NCBI GenBank assembly: GCA_003022005.1
Contig: PXRQ01000034.1
Coordinates: forward strand, 1-42,966
Reading direction: 5' to 3'
Origin: Halobacteriales archaeon QS_5_70_15
GTDB lineage: Archaea; Halobacteriota; Halobacteria; Halobacteriales; Haloarculaceae
DNA length: 42,966 nt
Below are positions 92 to 37,052 of this stretch, one piece after another. The position numbers and the translations under genes were made by a program. The notes beneath the pieces are model-generated. The model searched no databases, was not told the origin of the DNA, and worked only from the letters and a program-made list of their open reading frames with translations. Every line of letters starts with the position of its first letter. The stretch's first letter is position 1.

Positions 92-172
92 ATACGGTCG
101 TGCGTAGTCTTTTACCGTCGATACCCGACTCTGTCCGGGTTATCGCCGGTACATCGTTACGCACGACCGTAT
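92..172. repeat. Family-A inverted-repeat element, copy 1
   Basis: 81 bp with perfect 15-bp terminal arms (ATACGGTCGTGCGTA and its complement). The interior is itself imperfectly palindromic: ACCG, CGATA and CCCG blocks are mirrored on the other side, so the whole element can fold as one long hairpin. It is nearly identical in length and sequence to the copy at 11158-11238. It lies 115 bp beyond the stop of the ctaA-ctaB fusion. The minus-strand edge reads TGATACGG, as in most other copies. Confidence 0.85.
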
Positions 173-287
173 CAATCCCACCCGGCGATGGCTGTTCGGT
201 TAGCTGACCCGGATGGGGCTTTCGAGGCGGTATCCGCTGCCACTGATCCGGCTATCGGTCCGCCGGGAGTCCGGGGCGGTGACCGTC

Positions 288-1685
288 TCAAAACGCGAGC
301 GAATCGACGACGACCGCCAGTAGAAGTAACCCTAGATACGCGTTCGAGGCGTGGAAGGCGCGGAACGCCGCGCTCTCGCTCCGCTCGTAGTGGAGCCGAA
401 CGACGGCGGCCAGGAACACCGCACCGAGCCCCACGGTCGTCGCGGCGTAGAGCCACCCGAGTTCCGTGAGCGCGGAGAGCACGGAGGCACCGAGCAGCGT
501 CGCGCCGAGGTAGAGCAGGATGTGCTTTCGTGTCTCGGTCTCCCCGCGGACGACGGGCATCATCGGGAAGCCCCCGCGCTCGTAGTCGTCGCGGTAGGCC
601 AGCGCGAGGTTGTAGAAGTGCGCCGGCGTCCAGAGGAAGACCACGCCCGCGAGGACGAGCCCGGGGAGGCCGACCTCGCCGGTGACGGCGGCCCAGCCGA
701 TGAGCGCCGGGAGCGCCCCCGCGAACCCGCCGATGACGGTGTTCTGGACGGTGTTCGGCTTCAGCAGCAGGGTGTAGACGACGCTGTAGAACAGGATCGC
801 CACCAGCCCGAGCACGGCCGCGAGGAGGTTCACCGAGAGAAAGGCGACCAGCGACAGCACCGCCAGCGCCAGCCCGAAGGCCACGGCGTTGCGAACCGGA
901 ACCCGATGGGTGGCGACGGGCCGGTCGCTCGTCCGGTCCATCCGCGCGTCGACGTCCCGCTCGAGGACGTGGTTGAACGTGCCCGAGGCGCCGATGGCGA
1001 GGACGCCCCCGCCGAGCGTCGCCACGACCGTGCCCACGGAGAGCCCCGGCCCGGCCGCGAGCGCCATCCCGGCCGAGGCGACCAGGCACAGCAGCCACAT
1101 CAGCCGCGGCTTGGTGAGCCGGAAGTACGCCCACGCGGTCCCCTTCGCCCGGGCGAGGAGCGAGTCGTAGGCCGGCGACGGCGGGTCGGGCGCCCCCGCG
1201 GGAGCGACGGGTTCCTCCCCGTCGAGGGCCGGTTCGGGCCGTCCCTTCGGGCTGTCGTCGGTGCCGGTCTCGGCTTCGAGGTGCCAGGCAAGCGCCAGCA
1301 CGAGCGAGGAGAAGATGGCCGTCCCGACGAGCAGGTGACCGCCCGAGACGAGCGCGGGCGCCCCGAAGACGGCGACGGCACCGCCGACGAGCACCTGGAC
1401 AGGGTAGAGCAGCACGGCGGCGGCGAGCGCCAAGCGGACCCGACGGGAGGCACCGGACCGCCAGGCGGCGAACGCCCCGACGAGGACGAGCAGGCCGACG
1501 ACGGCCGCCATGACGCGGTGACCGACGGCGACCAGGAGTGCCGGGTCGACGGGTCCGGCGAGCGAACACCCGGGCCAGGTCCCGCAGGCCCGCGCGGCGT
1601 CGGCCAGCGCCGCGGTTGCCCCCACGACGACCAGGACGTAGACGCCGACGACCGCGGCCGAGAGCAGCCGGGTGAGACGCCTCAT
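288..1685 (-). CDS. ctaB: Heme A synthase / heme O synthase fusion (CtaA-CtaB)
   Basis: Makes heme A for the aa3 oxidase encoded next door. The N-terminal ~150 residues are a short, CtaA-like four-helix half with heme-ligand histidines in VGHRVMA and GGHLLVGT; half-size CtaA proteins are known in archaea. After an acidic linker, the C-terminal ~290 residues are a UbiA-type protoheme IX farnesyltransferase with the prenyl-diphosphate motif NHVLERDVDARMDRT and the second Asp-rich stretch YRDDYERGG. I chose the ATG at 1685 (465 residues, MRRLTRLL): the alternative ATG at 1715 overlaps the likely TATA box (minus strand ATAAGTAG, 1716-1723). Divergent from coxB, so the two can be controlled from one intergenic region. 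Annotation as ctaB alone, with an N-terminal extension, would also be fair. Confidence 0.9.
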   Translation of the reverse strand: MRRLTRLLSAAVVGVYVLVVVGATAALADAARACGTWPGCSLAGPVDPALLVAVGHRVMAAVVGLLVLVGAFAAWRSGASRRVRLALAAAVLLYPVQVLVGGAVAVFGAPALVSGGHLLVGTAIFSSLVLALAWHLEAETGTDDSPKGRPEPALDGEEPVAPAGAPDPPSPAYDSLLARAKGTAWAYFRLTKPRLMWLLCLVASAGMALAAGPGLSVGTVVATLGGGVLAIGASGTFNHVLERDVDARMDRTSDRPVATHRVPVRNAVAFGLALAVLSLVAFLSVNLLAAVLGLVAILFYSVVYTLLLKPNTVQNTVIGGFAGALPALIGWAAVTGEVGLPGLVLAGVVFLWTPAHFYNLALAYRDDYERGGFPMMPVVRGETETRKHILLYLGATLLGASVLSALTELGWLYAATTVGLGAVFLAAVVRLHYERSESAAFRAFHASNAYLGLLLLAVVVDSLAF

Positions 1686-1715
1686 AGGTCTCTCTACGTT
1701 CCTGTCGGGTGCCAT

Positions 1716-1768
1716 CTACTTATGATCCCCGTTTTCGCCCGCCTGCTCGCCTTTCGGCAAGTACTTAC
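1716..1768. promoter_or_regulatory. Divergent ctaAB / coxB promoter region
   Basis: AAGTACTTAC (1759-1768) is centred about 27 bp before the coxB ATG, the usual distance for a leaderless haloarchaeal transcript. On the other strand ATAAGTAG (1716-1723) sits about 34 bp before the preferred ctaAB start. Inferred from spacing and base composition only. Confidence 0.5.
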
Positions 1769-1790
1769 CGGGCCCATCCCAACCGCGGAT

Positions 1791-2576
1791 ATGGACCCGA
1801 AGCGAGCCGCGACACGGACGCTCGTCGGTCTCGCGTTCCTCGCGCTCCTGGCGGAACCGGCGGCCGCGCAGAACTCGCTCAACGAGGAGCTCATCACCGG
1901 GCTGAACGAGAAGCTGCTCTATGTCGCCATCCCGATCACCATCCTGGTCGAGGCCATCCTCATCTACACGGTCGTCCGCTTCCGCGAGTCGAACGTCGAG
2001 GAGGCCTCCCCGACCCGGGAGAACCGCCGCCTCGAGATCACCTGGACGGTCGCCACCGCCGTCATCCTCCTGTTCGTCGGCGTCGCCTCCTACCAGGTGC
2101 TCGGCGTCGAGGCCATCGGCGGCGTCACCGCCGCCTCGAACCCGAACGCCGACCAGGCCGCCGTCACGGAGGACTTCGAGGGCGCCGTCGGGCCCGAGCC
2201 CTCCGAGGAGAACGCGGTCGAGATCGAGGTCGTCGCCCAGAAGTACTACTGGACCTACAACTACAACGAGGCGAACGTCACCGGGCTCTCGACGAACGAC
2301 GAACCGCTCTACATCCCGAAGAACCGGACCGTCTACCTCCACATCACCTCGACCGATTGGCTCCACGCGTTCCACGTCCCCGACCTCGGACTCAAGCAGG
2401 ACGCGTTCCCCGGCCAGTACAACACCATCAAAACCGTCGCCTACGAGGAGGGCACCTACCAGCTCTACTGCGCGGAGTACTGCGGCGTGGGCCACTCGAA
2501 CATGCTCGGGAAGGTGACGGTGGTCCCGAACGAGGAGTATCAGGAGTACCTCGAGGAGAAGCGGTCCCAGGAGTAG
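1791..2576 (+). CDS. coxB: Cytochrome c oxidase subunit II (CuA subunit)
   Basis: 261 residues. Accepts electrons from a blue copper protein or cytochrome and passes them through CuA to subunit I. An N-terminal signal-like segment (LVGLAFLALL, ending AAAQ) is followed by two transmembrane helices (YVAIPITILVEAILIYTVV and a helix around AVILLFVGVAS). The soluble extracytoplasmic cupredoxin domain carries the full CuA ligand set: an upstream His in WLHAFHVPDLG and the CAEYCGVGHSNM motif (two Cys, Glu, His, Met). The start follows a TATA box at the leaderless distance; a longer open frame upstream has no coding character. The acidic insert (QAAVTEDFEGAVGPEPSEE) between helix 2 and the cupredoxin core is a haloarchaeal trait. 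Confidence 0.96.
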   Translation: MDPKRAATRTLVGLAFLALLAEPAAAQNSLNEELITGLNEKLLYVAIPITILVEAILIYTVVRFRESNVEEASPTRENRRLEITWTVATAVILLFVGVASYQVLGVEAIGGVTAASNPNADQAAVTEDFEGAVGPEPSEENAVEIEVVAQKYYWTYNYNEANVTGLSTNDEPLYIPKNRTVYLHITSTDWLHAFHVPDLGLKQDAFPGQYNTIKTVAYEEGTYQLYCAEYCGVGHSNMLGKVTVVPNEEYQEYLEEKRSQE

Positions 2577-2603
2577 CCCCGGCCCGGGAACCGCCGCGAT
2601 CTC

Positions 2604-2639
2604 GATCCCGACTCTCGCAGTGATCCCGACTCTCGCAGT
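2604..2639. repeat. Perfect 18-bp tandem duplication
   Basis: GATCCCGACTCTCGCAGT occurs twice without a gap (2604-2621 and 2622-2639) just after the coxB stop. The surrounding 215-bp gap otherwise holds only the promoter of the next gene. Probably a slippage product; no function evident. Confidence 0.8.
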
Positions 2640-2761
2640 TCTCGTCGTTCCTGCCCGCGCCCGATAGTTCTCCCGACCGCCCCGTCCTCCCCCCGTTCGA
2701 TTCCCCCGACTCCCGGTTTCCGTCCCGTTCGATCGGACGGACTCCGGCGGTCGACTGCAAG

Positions 2762-2768
2762 TATAAAG
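2762..2768 (+). promoter_or_regulatory. TATA box of the comDE-like operon
   Basis: TATAAAG, 30 bp before the ATG at 2792. The spacing suggests a leaderless or nearly leaderless transcript. Confidence 0.65.
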
Positions 2769-2791
2769 GGCCGGGGGATCGGGGTTCGACC

Positions 2792-3301
2792 ATGACGTGG
2801 GAAGGTGACGTCGTCGACGCGCTCGCCGCGAACGGGGTCACGACCGTCGCGTATCTGCCCGACACGGCCGTCTCGTCGCTGCTCGACAGCGTGGAGTCCG
2901 ACGACCGGTTCGACACCGCCCGGCTCTCCCGGGAGGAGGAGGGCGTCGGCGTCCTCGCGGGGACGTGGCTCGCGGGCGGCCGCGGCGCCCTGGTCTGTCA
3001 GTCGAGCGGGCTCGCGACGACGATCAACGCGTTCGCGTCGCTCTCGGTCCCCGCCCGGATTCCCCTGGTCGCGCTCGTGACCCGCCGGGGGGACCTCGAC
3101 GAGTTCAACGCCGCGCAGGTCCCGTTCGGCTACGGGCTGGAGGAGGTCCTCGACGCCATCAGGGTCCGCAACACCAGCCTCGAGGAGCCCGGGGAGGCCG
3201 GCCGGCGCGTCGGGATGGCCGTCCGGACCGCCTTCTCGACGCGGGAGCCGTACGCCGTCCTGCTGGAGTCGACGCTCACGGGGGCGAAGGATGAGTTCTG
3301 A
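2792..3301 (+). CDS. ThDP-dependent decarboxylase, ComD-like (pyrimidine-domain) subunit
   Basis: 169 residues, the length of the ComD half of two-subunit sulfopyruvate/phosphonopyruvate-type decarboxylases. The fold has the features of the Pyr domain of thiamine-diphosphate enzymes: the early YLPDT motif, the catalytic-Glu region SREEEGVGVLAG, and the conserved QSSGLATTINAFASL segment. It overlaps the start of the partner gene by 11 bp, so the two are surely cotranslated and should form one enzyme. In methanogens this pair makes sulfoacetaldehyde for coenzyme M; haloarchaea are not known to make coenzyme M, so the substrate here is open (another 3-substituted pyruvate is likely). Its own TATA box lies 30 bp upstream, so it can be expressed apart from coxB. 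Confidence 0.8.
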   Translation: MTWEGDVVDALAANGVTTVAYLPDTAVSSLLDSVESDDRFDTARLSREEEGVGVLAGTWLAGGRGALVCQSSGLATTINAFASLSVPARIPLVALVTRRGDLDEFNAAQVPFGYGLEEVLDAIRVRNTSLEEPGEAGRRVGMAVRTAFSTREPYAVLLESTLTGAKDEF

Positions 3302-3872
3302 GGATACCGACCGCCCGGCCGCCGACCAGTTCCGGTGTACGGCGGCGGTCCTCGAGGCGACGCCGGACGCCGCGGTCGTCTCGAACCTGGGCGTCGCCTC
3401 GTACGTCCTCGCCGGCGTCGAGGACCGGGACCGGAACTGCTACCTCTGGGGGTCGATGGGCGTGACGACGCCGGTCGGTCTCGGTATCGCGCTCGAGACC
3501 GACGAGCAGGTGACGGTACTGGACGGCGACGGCTCGACGCTGCTCTCGCTGGGTGCGCTCGCGACCGTCGCCCGCAACGATCCCCCTAACTTGGTGGTCG
3601 TGGTCTTCGACAACGCCGAGTTCGCGACCACGGGCGGCCAGCCCTCGGGCTCGGAACTGGTCGACTTCGCGGCCGTCGCCGAGGGGGTCGGCCTGCGGGC
3701 GTTCCGGGCCGACTCCGACGAGACCTTCCTCGAGGCGTACGCCGACGCCGTCGAGTACGACGGGGCGGCGCTGGTCGCCTGCCGGATCGAACCGGTCGAC
3801 CCCGAGAGCCGGCCGACGCTCGACTTCCCGCACATCGCGCGCCGCTTCCGCGAGTCGATCGACGGGAGGTGA
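3291..3872 (+). CDS. ThDP-dependent decarboxylase, ComE-like (diphosphate-domain) subunit
   Basis: 193 residues, the PP-domain partner of the preceding gene. The Mg/ThDP-binding signature is complete: GDGS (in LDGDGSTLLSLGAL) followed about 25 residues later by the Asn pair equivalent in VVFDNAEF. The segment YLWGSMGVTTPVGLGIAL is the usual active-site glycine-rich stretch of these decarboxylases. The ATG lies inside the end of the upstream gene. The TTGGQPSGSELVDFAAVAEG region matches the family's C-terminal part. Product best described as a sulfopyruvate decarboxylase-like subunit; the true substrate cannot be read from sequence. Confidence 0.8.
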   Translation: MSSEDTDRPAADQFRCTAAVLEATPDAAVVSNLGVASYVLAGVEDRDRNCYLWGSMGVTTPVGLGIALETDEQVTVLDGDGSTLLSLGALATVARNDPPNLVVVVFDNAEFATTGGQPSGSELVDFAAVAEGVGLRAFRADSDETFLEAYADAVEYDGAALVACRIEPVDPESRPTLDFPHIARRFRESIDGR

Positions 3873-4004
3873 TCGGACGGGACACGACGGACGGCGAGCG
3901 ACGGCCGATGGCGTGGCGCGTGATGGCGTGAAACACGGGGATGGTGCCTCGATCGTCGGCTTCGAGTAGGAGGGTTTTTCTCCGACGGTTCGCTAGTCGC
4001 GGGC

Positions 4005-4853: not shown

Positions 4854-4874
4854 CTCCGAACCGGCCCCCACCAG

Positions 4875-4963
4875 CCCTCCTCTCCCCTCCACTTCTCTTT
4901 CCCTGTCTTTCCTTCCATCCCCCCTCCCTTCTCTTCGGTTTCTCTCCGCTTCCACCTTCCCCT
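4875..4963 (+). other. Polypyrimidine tract downstream of coxC
   Basis: 89 nt of the plus strand contain only seven purines (about 92% C/T), with many T runs of 2-3. It begins about 20 nt after the coxC stop and ends 76 bp before the next start. T-rich stretches terminate transcription in archaea, so a coxC terminator is the simplest reading; a triplex (H-DNA) forming tract is another. No coding frame. Confidence 0.6.
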
Positions 4964-5039
4964 ACCGGGGTCCCGGACGGTGCGCTCCCCCTGCCGACGC
5001 TCCGACAGGTACACTTCCCCCGGTTCCCTATCGCCGCCG

Positions 5040-8055: not shown

Positions 8056-9849
<1,794 letters not shown>

Positions 9850-11104: not shown

Positions 11105-11157
11105 CAGCGGCTGTACAGGTCCGATACGAATAGTTCCGTCGAGTAGTACGGCTACTC

Positions 11158-11238
11158 ATACGGTCGTGCGTCGTCTTTTCCCGTCGATACCCGACCCTGT
11201 CCGGGTTATCGCCGGGACATCGTTACGCACGACCGTAT
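11158..11238. repeat. Family-A inverted-repeat element, copy 2
   Basis: 81 bp, the same length as copy 1 and differing from it at only a few bases. It lies between the convergent EamA and fumC genes; its last base belongs to the fumC TGA stop codon (minus strand TGATACGGTCGTGCG). Directly before it is a small hairpin, GAGTAG-N5-CTACTC (11141-11157). Position and fold suit a bidirectional terminator or a 3' UTR structure. Confidence 0.85.
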
Positions 11239-12572
11239 CAGTCCTCGCCGAGGATCCCCGGCCCGGTCATCCTCCGCGGGTCGAGCACCTGGTCGGCCTC
11301 CGCCTCGGTGAGGTAGCCCTCCTCGAGGACGACCTGGCGGACGGTCTTGCCCTCCTCCAGGGCCTGCTTTGCCACCTTCGCCGCGGCGTCGTAGCCGATG
11401 GAGGGGTTGAGCGCGGTGGCGAGCGCCATCGACTGCTCGACCTGTGTCTCCATCCCTGCGCGGTCTGCCTCTAATTTCGCCACGAACTTCTCGGCGAACG
11501 TCTCGGCGGCGTTCGCCAGCAGGTTCGCGGATTCGAGATAGTTGTGCGCGATGACGGGCTTGTAGAGGTTGAGGTCGACCTGTCCCTCCGCTGCGCCCGC
11601 GGAGACGGCCGCGTCGTTGCCGACGACCTGCTTGTGGTCGATCTCGCCCAGGCCGTTCCTGGGGCCGGAGGCGAGCAGCCGGAGGTCGTTGGCGATCTTG
11701 TTCAGGCTCCCGGCGACGGTGCGGAGCGCGCCGTGGGCCTCGCTCATCGCGTCGTGGGCGGCCTGGGCCTCGAAGTGGTCGTCCGCCTCGCGGAACTCGA
11801 TGCCGGTCTCCTCGGAGATGTACGCGGCGGCCGTCGCGGGGAACTCGGGGTGTGTGTTCAGTCCCGTGCCGACCGCGGTCCCGCCGAGCGCGAGTTCCGA
11901 GAGGTGCTCGCGGGTGTTCTCGACCCGCGCGATCCCCTTCTCTACCTGTGCCCGGTAGCCGCCGAACTCCTGGCCCAGGCGCACGGGCGTGGCGTCCTGG
12001 AGGTGGGTGCGGCCGGTCTTGACGACGTCGTCGAACTCGTCGGCCTTCTCGTCGAGGGCGCCGGCGAGCGTCTCCAGGGCGGGCAGGAGGTCCCGCTCGA
12101 CCGCCTCGAGCGCGGCGACGTGCATCGCGGTCGGGATCACGTCGTTGCTCGACTGCCCGAAGTTGACGTGGTCGTTCGGGTGGATCTCTCTCGTACCTAT
12201 CTCGCCGCCGTAGATCTCGGTCGCGCGGTTGGCGATCACCTCGTTGGCGTTCATGTTCGAGGAGGTCCCCGACCCCGTCTGGAAGACGTCGACCGGGAAC
12301 TGGTCGTCGTGCTCGCCGGCGACGACCTCGTCGGCGGCCTCGACGATGCACTCGGCCTCGTCCTCGGGGATCAGCCCGAGGTCGGCGTTGGCTCGCGCGG
12401 CGGCCTTCTTCACCACGCCGAGCGCCCGCACGAACCGGCGCCCGAACGTGATCCCCGAGATGGGGAAGTTCTCGACGGCCCGCTGTGTCTGTGCGCCCCA
12501 GTAGGCGTTCTTCGGTACCCGCATCTCCCCGAGGCTGTCCCGCTCCACGCGGTAGTCTCCGTCGTCGCTCAT
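11238..12572 (-). CDS. fumC: Class II fumarase lacking the catalytic GSS loop
   Basis: 444 residues from MSDDGDYRVERDSLG. Clearly FumC: AYWGAQTQRAVENFPISG, VFQTGSGTSSNMNANEV, HPNDHVNFGQSSNDVIPTA, TGRTHLQDATPVRLGQE and the C-terminal YKPVIAHNYLESANLLA are all present. However, the sequence runs from GPRNGLGEID straight into HKQVVGNDAAVS (junction at about 11636/11637). The expected segment between them, carrying the catalytic serine loop (GSSxMPxKxN) that is the family signature, is absent, about 26 residues, in frame. Family members are about 470 residues, which fits the loss. The product should fold but not have normal fumarase activity. Minus-strand TTTACGCC about 25 bp upstream is the likely TATA box. 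Divergent from ppc. Confidence 0.85.
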   Translation of the reverse strand: MSDDGDYRVERDSLGEMRVPKNAYWGAQTQRAVENFPISGITFGRRFVRALGVVKKAAARANADLGLIPEDEAECIVEAADEVVAGEHDDQFPVDVFQTGSGTSSNMNANEVIANRATEIYGGEIGTREIHPNDHVNFGQSSNDVIPTAMHVAALEAVERDLLPALETLAGALDEKADEFDDVVKTGRTHLQDATPVRLGQEFGGYRAQVEKGIARVENTREHLSELALGGTAVGTGLNTHPEFPATAAAYISEETGIEFREADDHFEAQAAHDAMSEAHGALRTVAGSLNKIANDLRLLASGPRNGLGEIDHKQVVGNDAAVSAGAAEGQVDLNLYKPVIAHNYLESANLLANAAETFAEKFVAKLEADRAGMETQVEQSMALATALNPSIGYDAAAKVAKQALEEGKTVRQVVLEEGYLTEAEADQVLDPRRMTGPGILGED

Positions 12573-12641
12573 GGACGAGGGCAGGCGTGCCAGGGGCGTA
12601 AAGCGTTCCGGATGGGTGCGACTCCCGCGGCTGACCGTTGA

Positions 12642-12661
12642 TTTACTCGAAGCCGTGTAAG
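12642..12661. promoter_or_regulatory. Operator-like site upstream of the ppc TATA box
   Basis: TTTACTCGAAGCCGTGTAAG in the fumC-ppc divergent region, directly upstream of the ppc TATA-like TTACTTTACC (12665-12674). It shares the octamer TTTACTCG with sites at 15364 and 35462, and fits TACT-N7-GTGTA, one mismatch from the TACT-N7/8-GAGTA motif reported for Halobacterium TrmB. Position upstream of TATA would suit activation. Confidence 0.45.
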
Positions 12662-12697
12662 AAGTTACTTTACCGCCTCGGCCGTTCGTGACACTCG

Positions 12698-15341
12698 ATG
12701 ACGGACGACACTGTCCTGCACACCCGGGACGTCGAGCGGGACGTCCGAGAGCTGGGGGCGATGCTCGGCGACGTGATCGAGGCACAGACCTCCCGCTCGG
12801 CGTTCGAACTGGTCGAGTCGGTCCGGAGCGACGCCATCGGCTACCGTCGGGGCGAGATCGAATCGCGGGACGGGGTTCGGCGGACGCTCTCGAACCTCCG
12901 GGGGAGCGAGTCGAGCGTCGTCGCCCGCGCGTTCACGACGTACTTCGAGCTGGTGAACGTCGCCGAGGAGCGCGAGCGGGTCCGCGCGGTCCGCGAGCGC
13001 GAGGCCGCCGGCACGCTCGACGACAGCATCCCGGCGGCGGTTCGAGCCGACGTTCACGGCACACCCGACCGAGGCCCGCCGGAAGACGGTGAAGGCGAAG
13101 CTCCGGAGCGTCGCCCGACAGCTCGAGGAGCTGGACACCCGGCGGCTGTCGTCGGGCGAGGAGCGCGAACTCGAGCGTCGGCTCGAGGCGGAGGTGACGA
13201 GCCTCTGGCAGACCCCGCAGCTCCGCGACCGACAGCCCGAGCCCACCGACGAGGCGCTCAACGTCCAGTGGTACCTCGAGACCACCCTGTTCGACGTGGT
13301 CGGCGACGTGTACGGCCGGCTCGAGCGCGCGCTCGAGGAGCGGTACGACGAGTCGGTCGAGGTGCCGAAGCTGTTCGAGTTCCGCTCGTGGGCCGGATCG
13401 GACCGCGACGGCAACCCCTACGTCACGCCGGAGACGACCGCGGAGACCCTAGAGCGCCAGCGCGAGGTCGTCCTCGGGCGGTACCGCGACGCCCTCGAGC
13501 GGCTCTCGGGCGCCCTCAGCCAGGACGCCCGGCGGGTCTCGGTCGGTCGGGCCGTCGGGGAACGCATCGAGACCCACGGGGAGCGGCTCCCGAACGTGGC
13601 GAGCGAGGCGGAGGAGCGCTACCCGAACGAGCCCTACCGGCGGCTGCTGGAGCTGATGCGCGAGCGGCTCGACCGCGTCGGCGGGATCCGTCCGGGAGGG
13701 TACCCCGACGAGGGGGCGCTGGTCGCCGACCTCGACGCGTTGGCCGAGGACCTCCGGACGAACGGGGCCGAGTCCGTCGCGGCCGCGCACGTCGACCCCC
13801 TCCGCCGCCAGGTCCGCACGTTCGGCTTCTCGCTGGCGAGCCTCGACCTGCGGGACCACCGCGCGAACCACACCGCGGCGGTGAGCGAGGCGCTGGCCCG
13901 CGAGGGCATCGACTACGACGCCATGGACGAGGACGAGCGGGTCGACCTGCTGACCGAGGCGACCCTCGAGGACGACCCCGTGATCGACGTGAGCGACACG
14001 GAGGGGCTCTCGGAGTCGGCCGCGCGCGTGCTCACGCTGTTCGAGCGCACCGCCGACTGGCAGGGCGAGTACGGCGCCGACGCCATCGACACCTACTGCA
14101 TCTCGATGACGGAGGAGCCGTCCCACGTCCTCGAGGTCCTGTTCCTCGCCGACCAGGCCGACGCCGTCGACCTCCCCGGGTACTCGGGGCTGGACGTCGT
14201 GCCGCTGCTGGAGACCGAGTCCGCGCTCGACGGCGCGCGGCGGATCATGGGGACGCTGTTCGAGAACGAGGCGTACGCGGCCGCCCTGGATGCCCGCGGG
14301 GACCTCCAGGAGGTGATGCTCGGCTACTCGGACTCGAACAAGGAGAACGGCTATCTCGCCGCCCAGTGGTCGCTCCACCACAACCAGAAGCGGCTCGCCG
14401 AGATCACCGACGACTACGGGGTGGAACTCCGGCTGTTCCACGGCCGCGGCGGCTCCATCTCGCGGGGCGGCGGCCCGATGAACGACGCGCTGCTGGCGCT
14501 GCCGAACGAGACGGTCACCGGGCAGGTAAAGTTCACGGAGCAGGGCGAGGCCATCGCCGAGAAGTACGCCCAGCCGAGCATCGCTCGCCGGAACGTCGAG
14601 CAGATGCTGAACGCGCAGCTCCGCGCGCGCCACGCCGCGCTCGAGGAGCCGACCGAGCAAGTGGACCCCGAGTGGGTCGAGGCGATGGGGACCGCCGCGG
14701 ACGCCGCCCGGACCGAGTACCGTGACCTCCTCGAGACCGAGGGGTTCGTCCGGTACTTCGAGGGGGCCACCCCCATCACGGTCATCGAGGACCTGAACCT
14801 CGGCTCGCGGCCGGCCTCGCGGAGCGGCGAGCGCACTGTCGAGGACCTCCGGGCCATCCCGTGGGTGTTCTCGTGGACGCAGGCGCGGTGCATCCTCCCC
14901 GGGTGGTACTCGCTCGGCACCGGACTCGGGGCGTACCTCGAGGACGGCGGGGGCCTCGCGGATCTCCGGGACATGTACGAGGCGTGGCCGTTCTTCCGGA
15001 CCACCCTCGACAACGCGGCCATGGCGCTGGCCCGGACGGATCTGGAGATCGCCGCGGAGTACGCCGACGTGGCCGACCCCGAACTGCGCGAGCGGTTCTT
15101 CCCGCGCCTGCGCGAGGAGTACGAGCGGACCGCCGAACTCGTGCTCGGGATCACGGGTCGGGAATCGCTGATCGACCGGGAGTGGCTCGAGGAGAACATG
15201 GAGCGGCGCAACCCGTACGTCGACCCGCTCAACCTCATCCAGGCCCGACTGCTCGACCAGTCACACCTCACCGACGCGGAGCGGCGCACGCTCCGGCTGA
15301 CGGTGAAGGGCATCGCCGCCGGCATGAAGAACACCGGGTGA
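12698..15341 (+). pseudogene. ppc: Phosphoenolpyruvate carboxylase, internal deletion and frameshift
   Basis: Carboxylates PEP to oxaloacetate. The first frame (MTDDTVLHTRDVERDVREL to LDDSIPAAVR) and the second (EPTFTAHPTEARRKTVKAK to the terminal IAAGMKNTG) join at about 13041-13046. Compared with haloarchaeal Ppc as I remember it, roughly 20 residues between LDDS and EPTFTAHPTE are missing, and the missing length is not a multiple of three. All catalytic parts survive beyond the break: His in TAHPTE, FEFRSWAGSDRDGNPYVTP, GYSDSNKENGY, FHGRGGSISRGGGP. As it stands no full-length enzyme can be made from one frame. The junction contains TCGAG, which may be a microhomology remnant. A TATA-like box lies 28 bp before the ATG. 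Confidence 0.85.
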
Positions 15342-16021: not shown

Positions 16022-16097
16022 GCACGGTCGTACGTAGTCCTCCGCCGCCGACAGCCGGTACTTACCCGTGGACGGTGGATCGTTACGCCGACCGTAT
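16022..16097. repeat. Family-A inverted-repeat element, copy 3
   Basis: 76 bp, diverged arms (GCACGGTCGTACGTA; right edge TACGCCGACCGTAT). It lies between the convergent usp and glucokinase genes and its final A pairs into the glucokinase TGA stop (minus strand TGATACGGTCGGCG). Confidence 0.75.
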
Positions 16098-17071
16098 CAG
16101 CCCTCCGCGGATCCCGGTCCCTTCAGCAGCCGTCGGTCGCCGGTCCCCTCGGTCATCGCGCTGGCGAGGGCCCCCTTCACTACCACGTCGTCGCCGAGCG
16201 TCGTCAGCCTGACCTCGGGGATGTTCGACATGACGAGGTCGCCGAGCCGCTCGCGGATCGGATCGAGGACGAGTTCGGTGTTCCTGAGCGCGACGGCACC
16301 GCCGACGTACACCACCAGCGGCGCGTAGGCGTGGACGACCGCCGCGAGGCCGAGCGCGTTCCACTTCGCGAGCCGATCGATCACGACGTCCGCGAGGGGG
16401 TCGCGGCCGGCGGCCGCGAACACGTCCGCCGCGTCGAGGTCGGCGAGCGGGAGGTCCGTCTCGACCTCGAGGGTCGTGTGGAGGTGGCGGGCGTAGCGGG
16501 GGATGTTGTTCCCCGAGCAGTAGGCCTCCCAGTGGCCGTCGATGCCACAGCCGCAGGTCATCCGGCCCTCGTGGTCGACGATGATGTGTCCGACCTCGCC
16601 GGCGTTGCCGTCCCACCCCGAGAGGACGTGTCCGTCGACGCAGACCCCCGCGCCGATGCCCGAGGAGATGGTGAGGTAGGCCATGTCGTCGGGGTTCCGG
16701 TCGGCGTGGAACCGCTCGCCGATGACGCCCGCGTTCGTGTCGTTGTGGAGGTGGATCGGGCCGTCGACGAGGTTGCCGAGGGGGCCGGTCAGCGGGATCC
16801 ACTCCACGTTCGGGAGGTTCGCGGGGTTCTCGACGGCCCCCTCGGCGAGGTCGAGCGGGCCGATGGAGCCGACGCCGACGGCCCGTATCCCGCCCGGCGC
16901 GACGCCCCCCGCGTCGCAGGCCGACCGGAGCGCCTCGAGCACGGCCTCCGTCACGGCGATGCCCGAGTCCCTCGGCGTCGAACGCCTGTCCTGCCCGCGG
17001 ACGGTCCCCTCGTCGTCGGCAACGACCGCTCGTACGTTCGTCGCCCCCAGATCCACGCCCGCGTAGGCCAT
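16097..17071 (-). CDS. ROK-family glucokinase
   Basis: 324 residues. Phosphorylates glucose (or a related sugar) with ATP in the cytoplasm. N-terminal phosphate-binding motif GVDLGATNVRAVV; catalytic Asp in HNDTNAGVIGE; GIGAGVCVDG; and the ROK zinc signature EVGHIIVDHEGRMTCGCG followed by GHWEAYCSG, where the third usual Cys is His. A second phosphate/adenosine motif is seen in VVYVGGAVALR. Minus-strand TTAAGT at about 17095-17103 is a likely TATA box 27 bp before the ATG. Its products feed the alpha-glucosidase region nearby. N-acetylmannosamine or fructose kinase activity is a less likely alternative. Confidence 0.85.
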   Translation of the reverse strand: MAYAGVDLGATNVRAVVADDEGTVRGQDRRSTPRDSGIAVTEAVLEALRSACDAGGVAPGGIRAVGVGSIGPLDLAEGAVENPANLPNVEWIPLTGPLGNLVDGPIHLHNDTNAGVIGERFHADRNPDDMAYLTISSGIGAGVCVDGHVLSGWDGNAGEVGHIIVDHEGRMTCGCGIDGHWEAYCSGNNIPRYARHLHTTLEVETDLPLADLDAADVFAAAGRDPLADVVIDRLAKWNALGLAAVVHAYAPLVVYVGGAVALRNTELVLDPIRERLGDLVMSNIPEVRLTTLGDDVVVKGALASAMTEGTGDRRLLKGPGSAEG

Positions 17072-17126: not shown

Positions 17127-17204
17127 GTCCGGTCGTGCGTAACGATTACGCCGTCGATCTAGCGATGCCGGTCGCCCCCGACAGAGGACCATGCACGATC
17201 GTAT
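17127..17204. repeat. Family-A inverted-repeat element, copy 4
   Basis: 78 bp (left arm GTCCGGTCGTGCGTA, right arm GCACGATCGTAT). Unlike copies 2 and 3 it sits between two genes of the same direction, just downstream of the zinc-ribbon gene, whose TGA stop overlaps the element's edge, and upstream of the glucokinase promoter. Confidence 0.75.
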
Positions 17205-18045
17205 CAGTCCCCGAACGTGAACAGCCGGGCGTCACAGTCCGGACAGTAGAGCACGTCCGCCGGCTCCTCCTTCGGGCCGCCACAGCAGGCGGCGGCGGTC
17301 GTCGTCTCCTCGAGCGCCGCGCCGCAGTCCGGACACGTCTCGAGGAACGTCCGGAGCGCGGCGGCGGCCGCGAGGAGAGCCACGTCCGCCCGGCGATCCC
17401 GACGCTGCCGTCGCCGAGCACCACCCACTCCCCGTGCTCGCCGCTCACGGCGTCGGCCTCGTCCGCACGGGCGACCTCGTGGACCGCATCGGCGAGCGCC
17501 CCGGTGTCGAGTTCGGCGAGGTCGGCCGTCTCGGCCTCCCACTCCTCACGGAACCCGGGGTCGGGCGCGACCCGCTCCCGGTCGACGACCACGACGCCGG
17601 ACTCGACCAGCGCCGACAGGACCTCCTCGCCGCCGGGTTCGACGCCGTCGCCGAGCCCGTCCGGCTCCGAGACGGGGCTCGGGGTCCCTTCCCCCGTCCG
17701 CCCGTCCTCTCCCGGTTCGGTGCCCGTTCCCGGCTCGGCGATCGCCTCCCCCGGCGGTTCGCGACCGGGCACGTCGTGGTCGAACGGGTCGTACGGGAGC
17801 GGGAGCGCGGCGACCAGCCGGGGGGCGACCCACGGCGTCCCCGGGAGGACGTACCCCCGGAGGTAGACGAGTGCCGTGCCGGCGAGGAGCACTGGAAGGG
17901 CGGCGAGGCGTCGCCGTCGGGCGACCGCGAGCGCGGCTCCGAGGACGAGGACGGCGTTCGCGACGGTACACGGCCAGCAGCGCCGCTCGCCCGTGTGCTC
18001 CGGACGGCGGAGGGTGTGGACGAGTTGGTCGGTGGAGAGGCCCAT
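17204..18045 (-). pseudogene. Membrane protein with C-terminal zinc ribbon, frameshifted
   Basis: Starts MGLSTDQLVHTLRRPEHTGE with a CWPC motif, followed by two hydrophobic segments (CTVANAVLVLGAALAVA and LAALPVLLAGTALVYLRGY), then an acidic soluble middle (about residues 90-210). The frame ends early, but in the next frame the sequence continues as ADVALLAAAAALRTFLETC and then a CPDCG ... YCPDCDARLFTFGD zinc ribbon ending at the TGA within the repeat. Total length 842 bp, so one or two bases are off near 17380-17400. I do not recognise a function; four-Cys ribbons like this often mediate protein contacts. Could be a sequencing error rather than a real break. Confidence 0.65.
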
Positions 18046-23654: not shown

Positions 23655-23685
23655 GACTTTGGGGGCAGTACAGGGATGGACTACC

Positions 23686-25389
23686 ATGGAGACCGGGCCG
23701 GACACGCTCGATCGCGAGTGGTGGAAGGAGGCGGTCGTCTACCAGATCTACCCGCGGAGCTTCAACGACAGCGACGGCGACGGCGTCGGCGACATCCCCG
23801 GCATCACCGAACGGGTCGACTACCTGGACGACCTGGGCGTGGACGTCGTCTGGCTCTGTCCGGTCTACGACTCGCCGCAGGCGGACATGGGGTACGACAT
23901 CCGCGACTACCGGGCGATCGACGACCAGTACGGCGACATGGCCGACTGGGAGGCGTTACTGGAGGCGCTCCACGCCCGTGGCATCCGCCTCGTCATGGAC
24001 CTGGTGGTGAACCACACCTCGAACGAGCACGAGTGGTTCCGGCGCTCGCGGCAACGCGAAGCGGGGTACGAGGACTACTACCACCGGGTCGACGGCTCTC
24101 CCGAGGAGCCGCCGAACAACTGGACCTCGTTCTTCGGCGGGTCGGCCTGGAGCTACGACGACGTGCGCGGACAGTGGTATCTCCACCTCTTCGACGAGAA
24201 ACAGCCCGGCCTGAACTGGCGCAACCCCGACGTGCGCGCGGACGTCAAGGCGATGATCCGGTGGTGGCTGGAGAAGGGGATCGACGGCTTCCGGATGGAC
24301 GTGATCAACCTGCTGTCGAAGGCCGAAGGGTTCCCCGATGGCGATCCGGACCCGGAGCGCGAGGGCCTGCCGATCGGCAACGAGCACTTCGTCAACGGGC
24401 CCCGGATCCACGAGTATCTCCGCGAACTCCACGACGACGTCTTCAGCGGGTACGACGTCATGACCGTCGGCGAGATGGTCGCGCTGACGGTCGAGGAGGC
24501 GAACGAGTTCCTCGGGTCCGACGGCGACGGCCTGAACATGGCGTTCCACTTCGATCACGTCTCGATCGACCACGGGGACGCCGGTCGGTGGTCGGTCGGC
24601 GACTGGGAGCTGACCGACCTCGAGGGGATCGTCGAGCGCTGGCAGACCGGACTCGAGGACACCGCGTGGGACGCGCTCTACTGGGAGAACCACGACCAGC
24701 CGCGGAGCGTCTCGCGGTTCGGCGACGTCGAGGACTACCACGCCGAGTCGGCGACGCTGCTGGCGACGTTCCTCATGGCCCATCGCGGAACGCCGTACGT
24801 CTACCAGGGCGAGGAGATCGGGATGACCAACGCCGACTTCGAGTCGCTCGAGGAGTGCCGCGACGTCGCGACGATCAACCGGGTGGAGATGGCCCTCGAC
24901 GCGGGCGAGATCAGTAGCTACGAGGAGATCCGTGACGTCGTCAACTACCAGAGCCGCGACAACGGCCGGACGCCGATGCAGTGGTCCGACGCGGCGAACG
25001 TCGGCTTCACCGACGGGGAGCCCTGGATCAAAGTCAACGAGAACTACCCCGATATCAACGTCGAGCGGGCGGTGGCCGACGACTCCTCGGTCTGGCACTA
25101 CTACCGTGCCCTGATAGGTCTCCGACACGAGGAGGACGTACTCGTTTACGGTGAGTACGAGCTCCTCCTCCCCGAGAACGAGCAGGTCTACGCTTGCGTC
25201 CGGACGCTCGGCGAGGAACGGGTACTCGTCGTCCTCAACTGGACCGACCGGGGTAAGGAGGTCGATCTGAGCGACGACGTGACCGACGGGGGCGCGTCGG
25301 TGCTGATCGCGAACTACGACGAGGTCGGGACCGACCTCGGGGCGCTCGACCTGCGTCCCTACGAGGCACGCGTCTACCGCCTCCCCTGA
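23686..25389 (+). CDS. GH13 alpha-glucosidase, paralogue 2
   Basis: 567 residues from METGPDTLDREWWKEAV. GH13 regions: DLVVNHTSNEHEWF, GFRMDVINLLSK (nucleophile Asp205), VGEMVALT (acid/base Glu263), WENHDQPRS (Asp337) and RTPMQWSDAANVGF. Relative to paralogue 1, region III has VGEMV for AGEMG and region IV has ENHDQP for GNHDLP, the latter being the commoner pattern in this subgroup; substrate preference may differ. The TGA stop is shared with the first base of a family-A repeat. It directly precedes the trmB and sugar ABC transporter genes, so it probably acts on the imported saccharide. Cytoplasmic. Confidence 0.93.
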   Translation: METGPDTLDREWWKEAVVYQIYPRSFNDSDGDGVGDIPGITERVDYLDDLGVDVVWLCPVYDSPQADMGYDIRDYRAIDDQYGDMADWEALLEALHARGIRLVMDLVVNHTSNEHEWFRRSRQREAGYEDYYHRVDGSPEEPPNNWTSFFGGSAWSYDDVRGQWYLHLFDEKQPGLNWRNPDVRADVKAMIRWWLEKGIDGFRMDVINLLSKAEGFPDGDPDPEREGLPIGNEHFVNGPRIHEYLRELHDDVFSGYDVMTVGEMVALTVEEANEFLGSDGDGLNMAFHFDHVSIDHGDAGRWSVGDWELTDLEGIVERWQTGLEDTAWDALYWENHDQPRSVSRFGDVEDYHAESATLLATFLMAHRGTPYVYQGEEIGMTNADFESLEECRDVATINRVEMALDAGEISSYEEIRDVVNYQSRDNGRTPMQWSDAANVGFTDGEPWIKVNENYPDINVERAVADDSSVWHYYRALIGLRHEEDVLVYGEYELLLPENEQVYACVRTLGEERVLVVLNWTDRGKEVDLSDDVTDGGASVLIANYDEVGTDLGALDLRPYEARVYRLP

Positions 25390-25491
25390 TACGGTCGTGC
25401 GCAACTGTTTTCGTTCGACACCACCGGCGTTTCGAGACCGCGGGGACCGGATCCGAGTCGGGACGCGAGAAAGGGCCACGCACGACCGTAC
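25389..25491. repeat. Family-A inverted-repeat element, copy 5
   Basis: 103 bp, the longest copy: outer arms ATACGGTCGTGCG and CGCACGACCGTA are kept but the interior differs and is expanded. The first base is the A of the alpha-glucosidase 2 TGA stop. It separates that gene from trmB. Confidence 0.8.
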
Positions 25492-29457: not shown

Positions 29458-29458
29458 C

Positions 29459-30427: not shown

Positions 30428-30431
30428 CACA

Positions 30432-31619: not shown

Positions 31620-31737
31620 CTGCTCCTCGGCGAGACGCGGTTCCGGTGGTTCCACCGAGCGCTCGGTTCAGTACATCGGATCCACAGCAGCGAACGACGG
31701 GTCCCGTCGGAGGGGCGCTGTCGCTCACGAAGCGCGT

Positions 31738-31986: not shown

Positions 31987-32148
31987 CGCAGGCGCGGGTG
32001 AACTCGTCGTCGAAGCCGTCAGGGAGCGCGACGACCGCCCGCTCCGGCACCCCGGAGAGGGCCCGGAGTCGAACCGGGAGACGGGATCGGTCGCGTGGCC
32101 GTCGACGACGGCCCGTCCGGGGACGAGCACCCCGGCGGCGACGTGGGT
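31985..32148 (-). pseudogene. Decayed duplicate of the pyruvate-kinase C-terminal domain
   Basis: On the minus strand, THVAAGVLVPGRAVVDGHAT and PVSRFDSG, then after a one-base shift LSGVPERAVVALPDGFDDEF. These align along their length with VHVAAEILASGRSVVEGSGT, GPLFRLEYGDLTGLPEGAIV and ALEEGFEGEF of the neighbouring pyk gene (its PEP-utiliser-like C-terminal domain). No start or remaining domains. It abuts the GH13 fragment on the other strand and lies 100 bp beyond the pyk stop in the same direction. Confidence 0.75.
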
Positions 32149-32247
32149 CCCCGAAGGCCGGAAGCCGAACCGCTACCCGTCCACGGCCGGTGACGGACGG
32201 AGCGGGAGCCGTTCGTGACCGCCGTGGCCGAACGCGACCGGTGCCCG

Positions 32248-34083: not shown

Positions 34084-34084
34084 C

Positions 34085-35430
34085 CTAGAGGATGACGCTC
34101 TTCGTCGTGGTGAAGGCTTCGATGGTGTAACCGATGCCCTCGCGGCCGATACCGGAGTCCTTCACCCCGCCGAACGGGATGTCGCCGAGGCCGTGGGACG
34201 GCGCGCCGTTGATGCGGACGCCACCGGCCTCGATCCGGTCGGCGACGCGCATCGCGCGGTCGTAGTCGGCCGTGAACACGGCGGCGTCGAGCCCGAGGTC
34301 CCCGCCGTTGGCGACCGCCAGCGCCTCCTCCTCGTCCGCGAAGGCGGTGACGACGGCGACGGGTCCGAACTGCTCCTCGTGGAGGATGCGGGCGTCGTGC
34401 GGGACTCCCGCGAGCAGCGTCGGCTCGAAGAACTGGCCGTCCCGCTCCCCGCCGCGGACGATCCTCGCACCCCGCTCGCCCCGGGGTTCCAGTTGTCGAC
34501 CTGCGCCTCCAGCAGGCCGACGACCTCGTCGTGGACCGACTCGTGGGCGAGGACGCGCGAGACGGCCGAGCAGCGCTGGCCCGCGTACTTGAACGACCCC
34601 TTCGCGCACTGGCCGGCGACGTCCGCGAGGTCGGCGTCCGGGAAGACCACGGCGGGCGCGTTGCCGCCGAGTTCCATGTGGAGGTTCGCCATCCCGGACT
34701 GCTTGGCGACGTGCTTGCCGGCGCTCGAGGAGCCGGTCATCGCGACGGCGTTGATGCGGTCGTCGCCCGCGAGCAGGTCCCCCACCTCCGAGCCGCGCCC
34801 GGAGACGAGGTTGAACGCGCCGTCGGGGAGCCCGACCGCCTCGATCGCCTCCGCGAGGATCGCGGCGCTCACCGGCGTCTTGCTCGCCGGCTTGAGCACG
34901 ACGCTGTTGCCCGCGGCCAGCGCGGGCGCGAGCTGGAGTGCCGTCGTCGAGAGGGGGTAGTTGTACGGGGTGATGCAGAGGACGGTCCCCACCGGCTCGG
35001 GCTGGACGATGGCCTTCCAGCCCTCGTGGCCGCCGGTCGTGCCCTCGACGAACTCGCCCTTCCGGTTCCGGGCCTCCTCGGCCGCGCGCCGGAACCGCTC
35101 GGCGGCCGAGTCGACCTCCCCCCGCGCCGAGGAGATGGGCTTGCCCGCCTCCCGGACGATGACGTCGGCCAGGCGGTCCTTCCGCGCCGCGATCTCCTCC
35201 GCGATCGCCGCCATCCACCTCGCCCGCTGGACGACGGTGGTCTCGCGCATCGGCCGCTTGGCGCGGTGGGCGGCCGCCAGCCCCGCCTCGGCCTGGTCCG
35301 CGCTGGCCGCCGCGGCCCTGGCGAAGATCCCGCCCTCCGCGAGGTCGGTCACCTCGATCGTCTCCTCGGCCTCCTCCCACCGGCCGTCGATGTACAGTTC
35401 GTAGGTCCGCTGCTCGAGTTTGGTAGCCAT
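34085..35430 (-). pseudogene. Aldehyde dehydrogenase (GapN-like), internal deletion and frameshift
   Basis: Frame 1 (MATKLEQRTYELYIDGRWEE to VDNWNPG) and frame 2 (ERGARIVRGGERD to FTTTKSVIL) join near 34474-34485. About 28 residues expected between NWNPG and the GARI strand are missing and the frame shifts. NAD(P)-binding and catalytic parts are in frame 1: PYNYPLSTTALQLAPALAAG, VVLKPASKTP, MTGSSSAGKHVA, MELGGNAP (Glu) and YAGQRCSAVSRVL (catalytic Cys). The set resembles non-phosphorylating glyceraldehyde-3-phosphate dehydrogenase, and its operon with pyk supports that; other aldehydes are possible. As written the enzyme is truncated after about 320 residues. Minus-strand CTTAACG lies about 25 bp before the ATG. 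Confidence 0.82.
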
Positions 35431-35461
35431 ACCCGACCCTTGGACCACCAGCGTTAAGAAG

Positions 35462-35481
35462 TTTACTCGGATTAGAATTAA
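35462..35481. promoter_or_regulatory. Operator-like site in the aldh / M24 divergent promoter
   Basis: TTTACTCGGATTAGAATTAA in the 58-bp divergent gap. It shares TTTACTCG with the ppc and usp sites; the second half is weaker (AGAATTAA against CGAGTAAA, 5 of 8). It also contains GATTA-N4-TAATC (35470-35483). AT-rich GTTAAGAAGTTTA (35454-35466) can serve as TATA for either gene. Confidence 0.45.
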
Positions 35482-35488
35482 TCATACC

Positions 35489-36652
35489 ATGTCTCCGCGC
35501 GATCCAGCGACGGGGAGCGGGCCTCGGAGCGAGGGGGGAGGCGGGGCGGACCTCCAACGGGACGGACGAGGGTGGCCGCCGGGCCGTCGTGAGCGCCTCG
35601 CGGATCTGCTCGAGGACGAGGGGCTCGAGAGCGTCTGGTTCGCCGACCCGGACACGTTCGCGTGGGCGACGGGCGGCTCGAACCTGGTCGACCGCAGGGC
35701 GGCCGTCGGCGAGGCCGCGGTCGGGTTCGACGGCGAGTGGACCGTCGTGACGAACGGCATCGAGGCCGAGCGGCTGCGCGATGAGGAACTCCCTGCGGGT
35801 GCCACGGTCGAGTCCTACGAGTGGCACGCGGGATCGCTGGCCGACGCGGTGGCCGAGCACGCCGAGACGCCCGCCGGGGCGGACTTCGACGTGCCCGGGT
35901 TCGACCGGGTGGATCCCTCACCGCTCCGGACGCGGCTGGCCGAGGCCGACGTCGAACGGTATCGGGACCTCGGGACCGACGCCGCGGCGGCCGTGGAGGC
36001 GGCCTGCCGTGCAGCGACGTCGGCGGACCGCGAGCACGACGTCGCCGCGCGGGTCGAGGCCGAACTCGCCGAGCGGGGCGCCGACGCGGGGGTCGTGCTC
36101 GTCGGCGGCGAGGAGCGTGCGCGGCGGTACAGACACTTCACGCCGACGGACGCGGCGCTCGGCGGTTACGCGCTCGTCGCCGTCACCGCCCGTCGGGACG
36201 GCCTCTACGCGAGCACCACCCGGACGGTCGCGTTCGACCCGCCCCCGTGGCTCGCGGGGCGTCACGAGGCGGCGGCGACCGTCGAGGCGACGGCGCTGGC
36301 GGCGACGCGGGCGTACGCCCAGCGGGACGGGACCGCGGCGGACGTCTTCGGGGCGATACGGGACGCCTACGCCGCGCTCGGCCACCGCGGGGAGTGGCGC
36401 GAACACCACCAGGGGGGCGCGACGGGGTACGCCGGCCGGGAGTGGCTCGCCACGCCGACGAGCGAGGCGCCGCTCGCACTCCCGGGGGCATACGCCTGGA
36501 ACCCGACGGTGCAGGGCGCCAAGAGCGAGGGGACCGCGCTCGTGACCGCCGACGGAGTGTGGTTCCTCACGACGGGTGACTGGCCGACAGCCGAGGTTTC
36601 GGCGGTGGGCTTCGAGGCGACCTTCGAGCGGCCCGCGGTGCTTCGGCGGTAG
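35489..36652 (+). CDS. M24-fold (aminopeptidase P / creatinase-like) protein
   Basis: 387 residues from MSPRDPATGSGPRSEGGG. N-terminal creatinase-type domain (ERLADLLEDEGLESVWFADPD) and C-terminal pita-bread domain (RYRDLGTDAAAAVEAACRAA, EREHDVAARVEAELAERGA region, HHQGGATGYAGREWLATP, NPTVQGAKSEGTALVTADG). In metal-dependent members two Asp, one His and two Glu bind metal. Here His (HHQGG) and one Glu (KSEGT) are seen, but the usual first Asp pair region reads TARRDGLYASTTRTVAF, with Thr where the second Asp is expected. It may therefore be a metal-free hydrolase like creatinase, or inactive. Divergent from the aldh-pyk operon. Confidence 0.75.
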   Translation: MSPRDPATGSGPRSEGGGGADLQRDGRGWPPGRRERLADLLEDEGLESVWFADPDTFAWATGGSNLVDRRAAVGEAAVGFDGEWTVVTNGIEAERLRDEELPAGATVESYEWHAGSLADAVAEHAETPAGADFDVPGFDRVDPSPLRTRLAEADVERYRDLGTDAAAAVEAACRAATSADREHDVAARVEAELAERGADAGVVLVGGEERARRYRHFTPTDAALGGYALVAVTARRDGLYASTTRTVAFDPPPWLAGRHEAAATVEATALAATRAYAQRDGTAADVFGAIRDAYAALGHRGEWREHHQGGATGYAGREWLATPTSEAPLALPGAYAWNPTVQGAKSEGTALVTADGVWFLTTGDWPTAEVSAVGFEATFERPAVLRR

Positions 36653-36707
36653 TCCACGCGCCGTCCCTCGGACGATGGACCCGCCGGCTCGACGGGTCGG
36701 CGCCCCC

Positions 36708-36881
36708 CTACTCCCCGGCGAAGTAGCTCGTGAAGAACCCCGAGAGGAACGCCGACACCGCGACGGCGAGGAGCAGGTCCGTCGTGTCGTATCTCCCGTC
36801 GCCGTCGGCCGTGACGACCGTCGCGACGACGCTGACGACCAGCGAGATGATACCGTTCAGCGTGTGCTTGCCGAGTCCCAT
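36708..36881 (-). CDS. Small two-helix membrane protein
   Basis: 57 residues from MGLGKHTLNGIISLVVSVV; upstream in-frame ATGs at 36908 and 36938 would add 9 or 19 residues of less typical sequence. Two helices (GIISLVVSVVATVV and LLLAVAVSAFLSGFFTSYF) are separated by an acidic DGDGRYDTTD loop. I recall similar conserved small haloarchaeal proteins without known role. It is followed toward 36653 by the end of the convergent M24 gene. Confidence 0.6.
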   Translation of the reverse strand: MGLGKHTLNGIISLVVSVVATVVTADGDGRYDTTDLLLAVAVSAFLSGFFTSYFAGE

Positions 36882-36975
36882 GCTCGACCCGTGAACTGCC
36901 CCGAACATACCGGTTTGCCTACCGGCGTTCGAGGCCACCGCGGCGGGCGGCGGGTCGGTCCGGGGGCGTCCTCTG

Positions 36976-37052
36976 AGACGGTCGTGCGTAGTCCGCGATG
37001 ATCGCCGACCCCGGTCGGGCGCTCGCCGGCAAATCGTTACACAAGACCGTAT
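36976..37052. repeat. Family-A inverted-repeat element, copy 6
   Basis: 77 bp: left arm AGACGGTCGTGCGTA, right edge TACACAAGACCGTAT. Interior with GATCGCCGACC and GGTCGGGCG blocks is again self-complementary. It lies 58 bp beyond the end of the broken pentapeptide/ion-channel gene and upstream of the small membrane protein gene. No stop codon of a live gene overlaps it. Confidence 0.75.

Follow-up and report, generated by a model that had tools for sequence, protein, structure and literature searches.

We analyzed a 42,966-nt stretch of DNA from Halobacteriales archaeon QS_5_70_15 (contig PXRQ01000034.1, positions 1 to 42,966; the whole stretch is called the window), which contains six short palindromic elements (copies 1–6). 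It is very probable that these elements belong to a haloarchaeal family of miniature inverted-repeat transposable elements (MITEs) which have TACGGTCGTGCG inverted repeats, are moved in trans by a transposase of the IS630 family, and duplicate TGA or TCA (TSA) at the target. Each element has the structure TACGGTCGTGCG...CGCACGACCGTA and is flanked by a 3-bp direct repeat, either TGA/TGA or TCA/TCA. Members of this family (family A; two other families, B and C, are described below) are mostly 74–111 bp long, with a few of 42–155 bp, and are too small to encode a transposase. The family fits the description of a MITE: it is short, has ends in common with a transposase-bearing element, duplicates its target, and occurs in multiple dispersed copies. 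The family is real and widespread, and is apparently mobilized by a group of haloarchaeal IS630 elements whose duplication is TGA/TCA rather than TA.

A preliminary description of this DNA had reported six hairpin copies at high density and had named nonautonomous mobile elements among several explanations. All six copies are present at the coordinates it gave, and the density was confirmed by the arm ATACGGTCGTGCGTA (≤3 mismatches), which has 11 matches in the window compared with a mean of 1.32 and a maximum of 4 in 100 shuffles. Mobile elements are the explanation that holds: shared ends, target duplications, empty sites, longer same-ended partners with transposase domains, and many copies elsewhere were all observed, as was an excess of copies at gene ends.

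Target duplication and empty sites

The duplication was analyzed in 76 paired family-A elements from the window and from sampled regions of genomes G006, G366, and G002. Twelve elements in which one or both flanking 3-mers were not TSA were set aside. Among the 64 elements with TSA on both sides, 60 had identical flanks (P-value = 4e-14, assuming independent middle bases). All 60 identical pairs were TSA, compared with a 30% share of TAA/TTA among noncoding TNA sites (P-value = 5e-10). Of 29 elements sampled non-randomly from Halobacteriales archaeon QS_5_68_33 (G005), 16 had identical TSA flanks, 3 were discordant, and 10 were of other kinds.

Comparison with related genomes, suggested in the preliminary description, revealed empty sites which contain a single 3-mer. 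Three sites similar to the L257 insertion each have one TGA, and three sites similar to the L115 insertion (193 bp) each have one TCA. Where a family-C element is nested in a family-A element, most uninterrupted family-A copies have one TGA or TCA at that spot. The L261 insertion is absent at the orthologous sites of G458 and G366, in which the TCA stop is kept and the DNA beyond it has diverged. No TA was found at the junction of MITE empty sites. Because these sites carry a single TGA or TCA, the terminal TA belongs to the element, and duplication of TA (the usual IS630 rule) is ruled out. One more empty-site lead, between QH_10_67_22 (L003) and G381, covers 1.3 kb containing several elements and was left out. 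Insertions of one MITE into another were also seen at L250, L278, L289, L290, and L491, with clean empty sites in many uninterrupted copies.

Longer IS630-type partners and probable origin of the hairpin

Longer elements with the same ends were found in four genomes. G298 has two elements of 1.15 kb flanked by TGA/TGA or TCA/TCA (L179, 1029–2175; L180, 1040–2189), and G007, G005, and G250 have one relative each, of 1.04–1.11 kb, with concordant TGA or TCA flanks; thus, the flanks agree in 5/5 longer copies. TACGGTCGTGCG is present at both ends in G298, G250, and G005, whereas in G007 one end is exact and the other has one mismatch. Parts of the G298 transposase match the NF033545 (IS630), DDE_3, and HTH families. 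The NF033545 scores are 101.5 bits for the N-terminal part and 89.5 bits for the C-terminal part (the cut-off of 100 refers to the whole protein), and the DDE_3 score is 114 bits. The longer partner duplicates TGA/TCA and not the TA of IS630-type elements.

Relatives of these insertion sequences (ISs) were also analyzed on plasmids, in a sample of 12 loci out of 186 matching plasmid records. Ten loci are close relatives (69–80% identity) and the other two share 36–47% identity. With ends determined by eye, concordant TSA flanks were present in six of the ten. The transposase is encoded by two overlapping open reading frames (ORFs) in four of five annotated close relatives and by one ORF in the fifth. 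The ends are TAGTG in most of the ten, as in MITE family C, and family-A-like in a Natronococcus copy.

These features suggest how the MITEs may move. An IS630-family (HTH plus DDE_3) transposase from the 1.04–1.15 kb same-ended elements would mobilize them in trans, presumably by a cut-and-paste mode, and insertion duplicates a 3-bp target which reads TGA on one strand and TCA on the other. The longer elements may also be the source of the hairpin. Outside the terminal inverted repeats, the right half of copy 1 was more similar to the right end of the IS than any of 1,000 shuffles, and for its two halves 0 and 1 of 1,000 shuffles, respectively, scored as high; the corresponding numbers were 3/1,000 for copy 2 and 0/1,000 for a Halobaculum copy. 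Given this similarity of each half of copy 1 to the right end of the IS, the 79-bp element looks like two inverted copies, or a fold-back, of one such end, an arrangement which would form a hairpin.

Several observations weigh against this scheme. Four of the 64 TSA-flanked elements combine a TGA flank with a TCA flank, and the empty site of the L265 insertion is GGA (four sites), one base off TGA. Two of the ten close plasmid relatives have TGA versus TCA, one has no TSA on either flank, and the left end of one was not located. Three single-base indels in the transposase gene distinguish the G298 copies from each other, so neither looks intact, and the G005 transposase frame seems to lack its original N-terminus; an intact full-length family-A transposase frame was confirmed in none of the longer copies. 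In addition, the family-A DDE domain was unmatched in five high-copy genomes (G002, G006, G366, G458, and G463), all of which gave IS630 matches below the cut-off only; hence their mobilizer is missing, lost, or unseen. In the shuffle test, a 107-bp subfamily of G002 and copy 5 showed no similarity to the IS beyond the terminal inverted repeats. Finally, no transposition was observed, and movement is deduced from site polymorphism between related genomes.

Window copies and their position at gene 3' ends

The copies in the window and the genes that end at them are listed in table 1. Copies 1 and 2 had been described as nearly identical 81-bp units, which is correct in that frame, but the unit that moves measures 79 bp; the A and T at the outer ends of the 81 bp belong, as inner bases, to the 3-bp repeats on either side. 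The remaining copies were said to be diverged with conserved arms. Copies 3, 4, and 6 are diverged members of a short subfamily, and copy 5 resembles the longer 107-bp subfamily of G002 (subfamilies were assigned by eye from length and arm motifs). Copy 4 lies in the opposite orientation, as judged by eye. The proposed single long hairpin is strong in copies 1, 2, and 5 but weaker in copies 3, 4, and 6, with folding energies of -46, -46, -32, -26, -43, and -28 kcal/mol for copies 1–6, respectively.

Table 1. Family-A elements in the window and genes ending at them
Feature	Position	Strand	Description
Copy 1	93..171	none	79-bp MITE; perfect 14-bp terminal inverted repeats; TCA at 90-92 and 172-174
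Copy 2	11159..11237	none	79-bp MITE; TCA at 11156-11158 and 11238-11240
Fumarase gene (Lyase_1, FumaraseC_C)	11238..12785	-	Pfam; ends at copy 2; longest ORF, true start probably internal
Copy 3	16023..16096	none	diverged short-subfamily MITE; left 3-mer TCG, right TCA at 16097-16099
ROK-family gene	16097..17071	-	Pfam; ends at copy 3
Copy 4	17128..17203	none	diverged short-subfamily MITE; left 3-mer decayed (GTG), right TCA
Alpha-amylase family gene	23659..25389	+	Pfam; ends at copy 5
Copy 5	25390..25490	none	101-bp MITE, longer subfamily; left TGA at 25387-25389, right 3-mer CGA
Copy 6	36977..37051	none	diverged short-subfamily MITE; TGA at 36974-36976 and 37052-37054

All six copies are intergenic, as had been noted, yet three of them (copies 2, 3, and 5) start at the stop codon of a gene with Pfam support: the right-hand TCA of copy 2 is the fumarase stop (TGA), the right TCA of copy 3 is the stop of the ROK-family gene, and the left TGA of copy 5 is that of the alpha-amylase gene. 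The right TCA of copy 4 may be the stop codon of an ORF at 17204-17542 (-); it is considered a candidate because a homologue search with this ORF found none at E ≤ 0.001. Copy 6 is not on the stop codon of any supported gene, and copy 1 is off any stop codon, in the gap beyond a UbiA-family gene (288-1715, -). The Pfam content of window positions 288-42966 includes cytochrome oxidase parts (COX1, COX3, and UbiA), fumarase, PEP carboxylase, alpha-amylases, a TrmB regulator, an ABC sugar importer, pyruvate kinase, and a glucanotransferase.

Fumarase orthologues in QS_5_68_33 and in the 20 best-matching of 148 genomes stop where the gene at copy 2 does or only a few codons away, and no arm was found in the bases inspected after the fumarase end in any of these genomes. 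Their stop codons are TGA in 16 of the 20, TAA in four, and TAG in QS_5_68_33.

A similar position is common in the larger sample. A predicted stop codon is the exact site of 34/76 family-A elements, compared with 10.7% of noncoding TSA sites. When the three families are pooled (A, B, and C; TSA on both sides, five insertions in coding sequence set aside), the fraction is 62/137 versus 11.0% (P-value = 5e-24), and it is 18/29 in the non-random sample from QS_5_68_33. All these fractions are approximate because the stop codons were called by a home-made, unvalidated gene caller, which missed the ORF possibly ending at copy 4. Sites 1–20 nt downstream of stop codons are used nearly as often as the stops themselves; thus, the safe claim is enrichment at gene 3' ends (0–20 nt; odds ratio [OR] = 7.4, P-value = 3e-28).

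Survival after random insertion may explain the stop-codon excess. TGA is the duplicated target and also the most frequent predicted stop codon of these genomes, so an insertion on a stop codon restores that codon ahead of the element, and the protein is unaltered. Such hits, together with the loss of insertions from coding sequences and promoters, would then let the elements accumulate at gene 3' ends. We infer that selection is the cause of this excess.

An alternative that we consider rather unlikely is homing, in which a larger motif, transcription termination, or chromatin, for example, would actively direct the transposase complex to stop codons or the 3' ends of genes. The high stop-codon fractions in the pooled families and in QS_5_68_33 agree with it, and family C taken alone is found on stop codons more often than on TSA sites 1–20 nt downstream (OR = 3.5, P-value = 0.03). 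However, the same comparison is not significant for the pooled families (OR = 1.5, P-value = 0.19), family A (OR = 1.4, P-value = 0.57), or family B (OR = 0.6, P-value = 0.39), and no motif beyond the target duplication was visible by eye, except codon periodicity upstream. The distribution over spacers is also what selection predicts: among 66 elements, 24 are in convergent and 7 in divergent spacers, against a background of 110 versus 162 (P-value = 1e-4). Active homing as the sole explanation was rejected, being inseparable from selection.

It is far less probable that the elements are 3' untranslated region (UTR) hairpins recruited by the host as bidirectional terminators or RNA-stability elements and retained for their function, a role that the preliminary description had also raised. 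They stand right behind stop codons, fold stably (to -46 kcal/mol), and in many copies have a run of four Ts (T4) near one end. Yet such a run faces the gene (within 32 bases) in 9 of 32 at-stop family-A copies from three relatives, an orientation which may speak against a terminator, and the elements are absent from orthologous gene ends. Compensatory changes are also few. Double changes occur in 1 of 21 pairs of the 107-bp type (G002, 28 copies), and in 4 of 26 pairs of a 78-bp type (G005, 16 copies), in one sequence each and with no net covariation bonus. Covariation terms are near zero. As no significance test was run and divergence is low, this covariation result is weak either way. A small structured RNA, another early suggestion, is not supported, given the same few compensatory changes and the lack of any Rfam match at gathering thresholds in the window. 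Overall, no good evidence was found that the elements are under selection as RNAs or terminators. A REP-like or structured-RNA family without any relation to DDE transposition, which the palindromic, intergenic, and multicopy nature of the elements might suggest, is scarcely credible and largely refuted by the target duplications, the empty sites, and the same-ended DDE transposon (Y1 genes, the mark of REP/RAYT systems, were not searched for), besides the Rfam result.

Distribution, related systems, and implications

Among the compared genomes, QS_5_68_33 is closest to the window by the fumarase region (86% identity over 923 bp); in the same comparison, the family of Halobaculum gomorrense shows up to 85% identity. 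An exact scan with TACGGTCGTGCGTA matched at least 118 stretches. Among the 80 matches listed, many are single matches in bacteria, and paired arms bound elements of 79–108 bp in several haloarchaea. The wider search of haloarchaea showed that copies are common elsewhere. Whole-genome arm matches (≤2 mismatches) per strand were 171/173 in G003, 131/138 in G002, 47/43 in G006, 17/30 in G005, 9/9 in G007, 7/7 in G004, and 5/7 in G001, with 1–4 matches for the reversed pattern as a control, and 2–3 in G003, G002, and G006. In the order of Halobaculum gomorrense, 150 of 392 genomes have an arm match (≤1 mismatch), mostly one or two and near the control level. The arm was matched in 14/18 genomes of the genus of G006, in which the high-copy genomes are G366 (78/65), G458 (37/46), G006 (44/40), and G463 (26/26). 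In QS_5_68_33, 246/243 matches per strand were obtained at ≤3 mismatches (control 29/36); among the matches listed, most have the variant end TACGGTCGGTTGTA or TACGGTCGGTCGTA. This genome has a variant 78-bp element with TACGGTCGGTTGTA ends (e.g., L187, 837-914; L194, 1449-1526; L499, 237-314) and a further element type with TACTGCCGGCTG ends. The 81-bp unit had no match among 72,556 plasmid records (E ≤ 1e-5), and 28 viral-contig stretches have one exact arm each, with an exact arm pair in none.

Two additional MITE families were observed. Family B has TACTGTCGGACA ends and is mostly 108–109 bp long. It occurs in QH_10_67_22 (L003, 277-391, 1984-2096, and 6141-6256) and in regions of G006 and G366; its 46 elements comprise 26 with concordant TSA flanks, 2 with discordant TSA flanks, and 18 others, including three TAA/TAA. 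Family C has TAGTGATTATTG ends, similar to those of IS630-type elements on haloarchaeal plasmids, and is mostly 80 or 109 bp long. It occurs in QH_10_67_22 (L003, 4108-4196 and 7467-7555) and in regions of G002 and G366. Its TSA-flanked copies are concordant in 51/53 cases, and 6/59 were set aside.

IS630/Tc1-mariner elements are textbook TA-duplicating transposons. Bacterial MITEs mobilized by IS630 elements, such as RUP and Correia/NEMIS, share with the present family a size of about 100 bp, high copy number, and the type of mobilization, but duplicate TA. In the literature covered by our search, outside which most subscription papers lay, neither a 3-bp TGA duplication nor stop-codon siting was found for haloarchaeal IS630 elements.

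For ISY100 and IS630, the insertion site is TA, which is duplicated, for ISY100 almost always in vitro (PMC2170065). The present system has in common with them small elements, short terminal inverted repeats, and a transposase of the HTH plus DDE type, but its elements duplicate TGA/TCA and have a terminal TA of their own. ISHsp2 of Halomonas sp. ZM3 is likewise a divergent IS630 member with a two-ORF transposase and a non-TA duplication; however, it is bacterial, duplicates 4-bp TTAA, and has no MITEs in the available account (PMC3606827). MITEs of Haloquadratum walsbyi are also short haloarchaeal elements that are moved in trans and share ends and duplication length with transposons, whereas the portion of that account at hand does not name IS630 and describes no TGA 3-bp duplication or stop-codon siting (PMC3119063). 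SMR-A of Haloquadratum resembles family A in being about 110 bp long, with conspicuous inverted ends, many copies, and a strong target preference. As far as the same partial account goes, it has no target duplication and ends unlike known transposons, and inserts in PATE/IS605 palindromes (PMC3119063); the 3-bp duplication sets the present family apart from it, by description only. An overlooked 3-bp duplication could make SMR-A elements relatives of family A, a comparison again drawn from that partial description.

A broader idea, for which we see a limited chance, is that a haloarchaeal branch of IS630/Tc1-mariner exchanged its 2-bp TA target for the stop codon TGA and is directed to gene ends, where it rebuilds the codon, and that at least three MITE families (TACGGTCGTGCG, TACTGTCGGACA, and TAGTGATTATTG ends) exploit this. 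If true, a genome may carry hundreds of copies with little harm, because all these families would profit from stop-codon rebuilding. A TGA-duplicating branch would provide structural and mutational studies with a naturally altered target, in length as well as sequence, and a target which is also the main stop codon would be a simple route to a harmless transposon in compact genomes. Moreover, many genes would have received a similar hairpin behind the stop codon, and their comparison with empty orthologues may serve as a test of archaeal 3' UTR effects.

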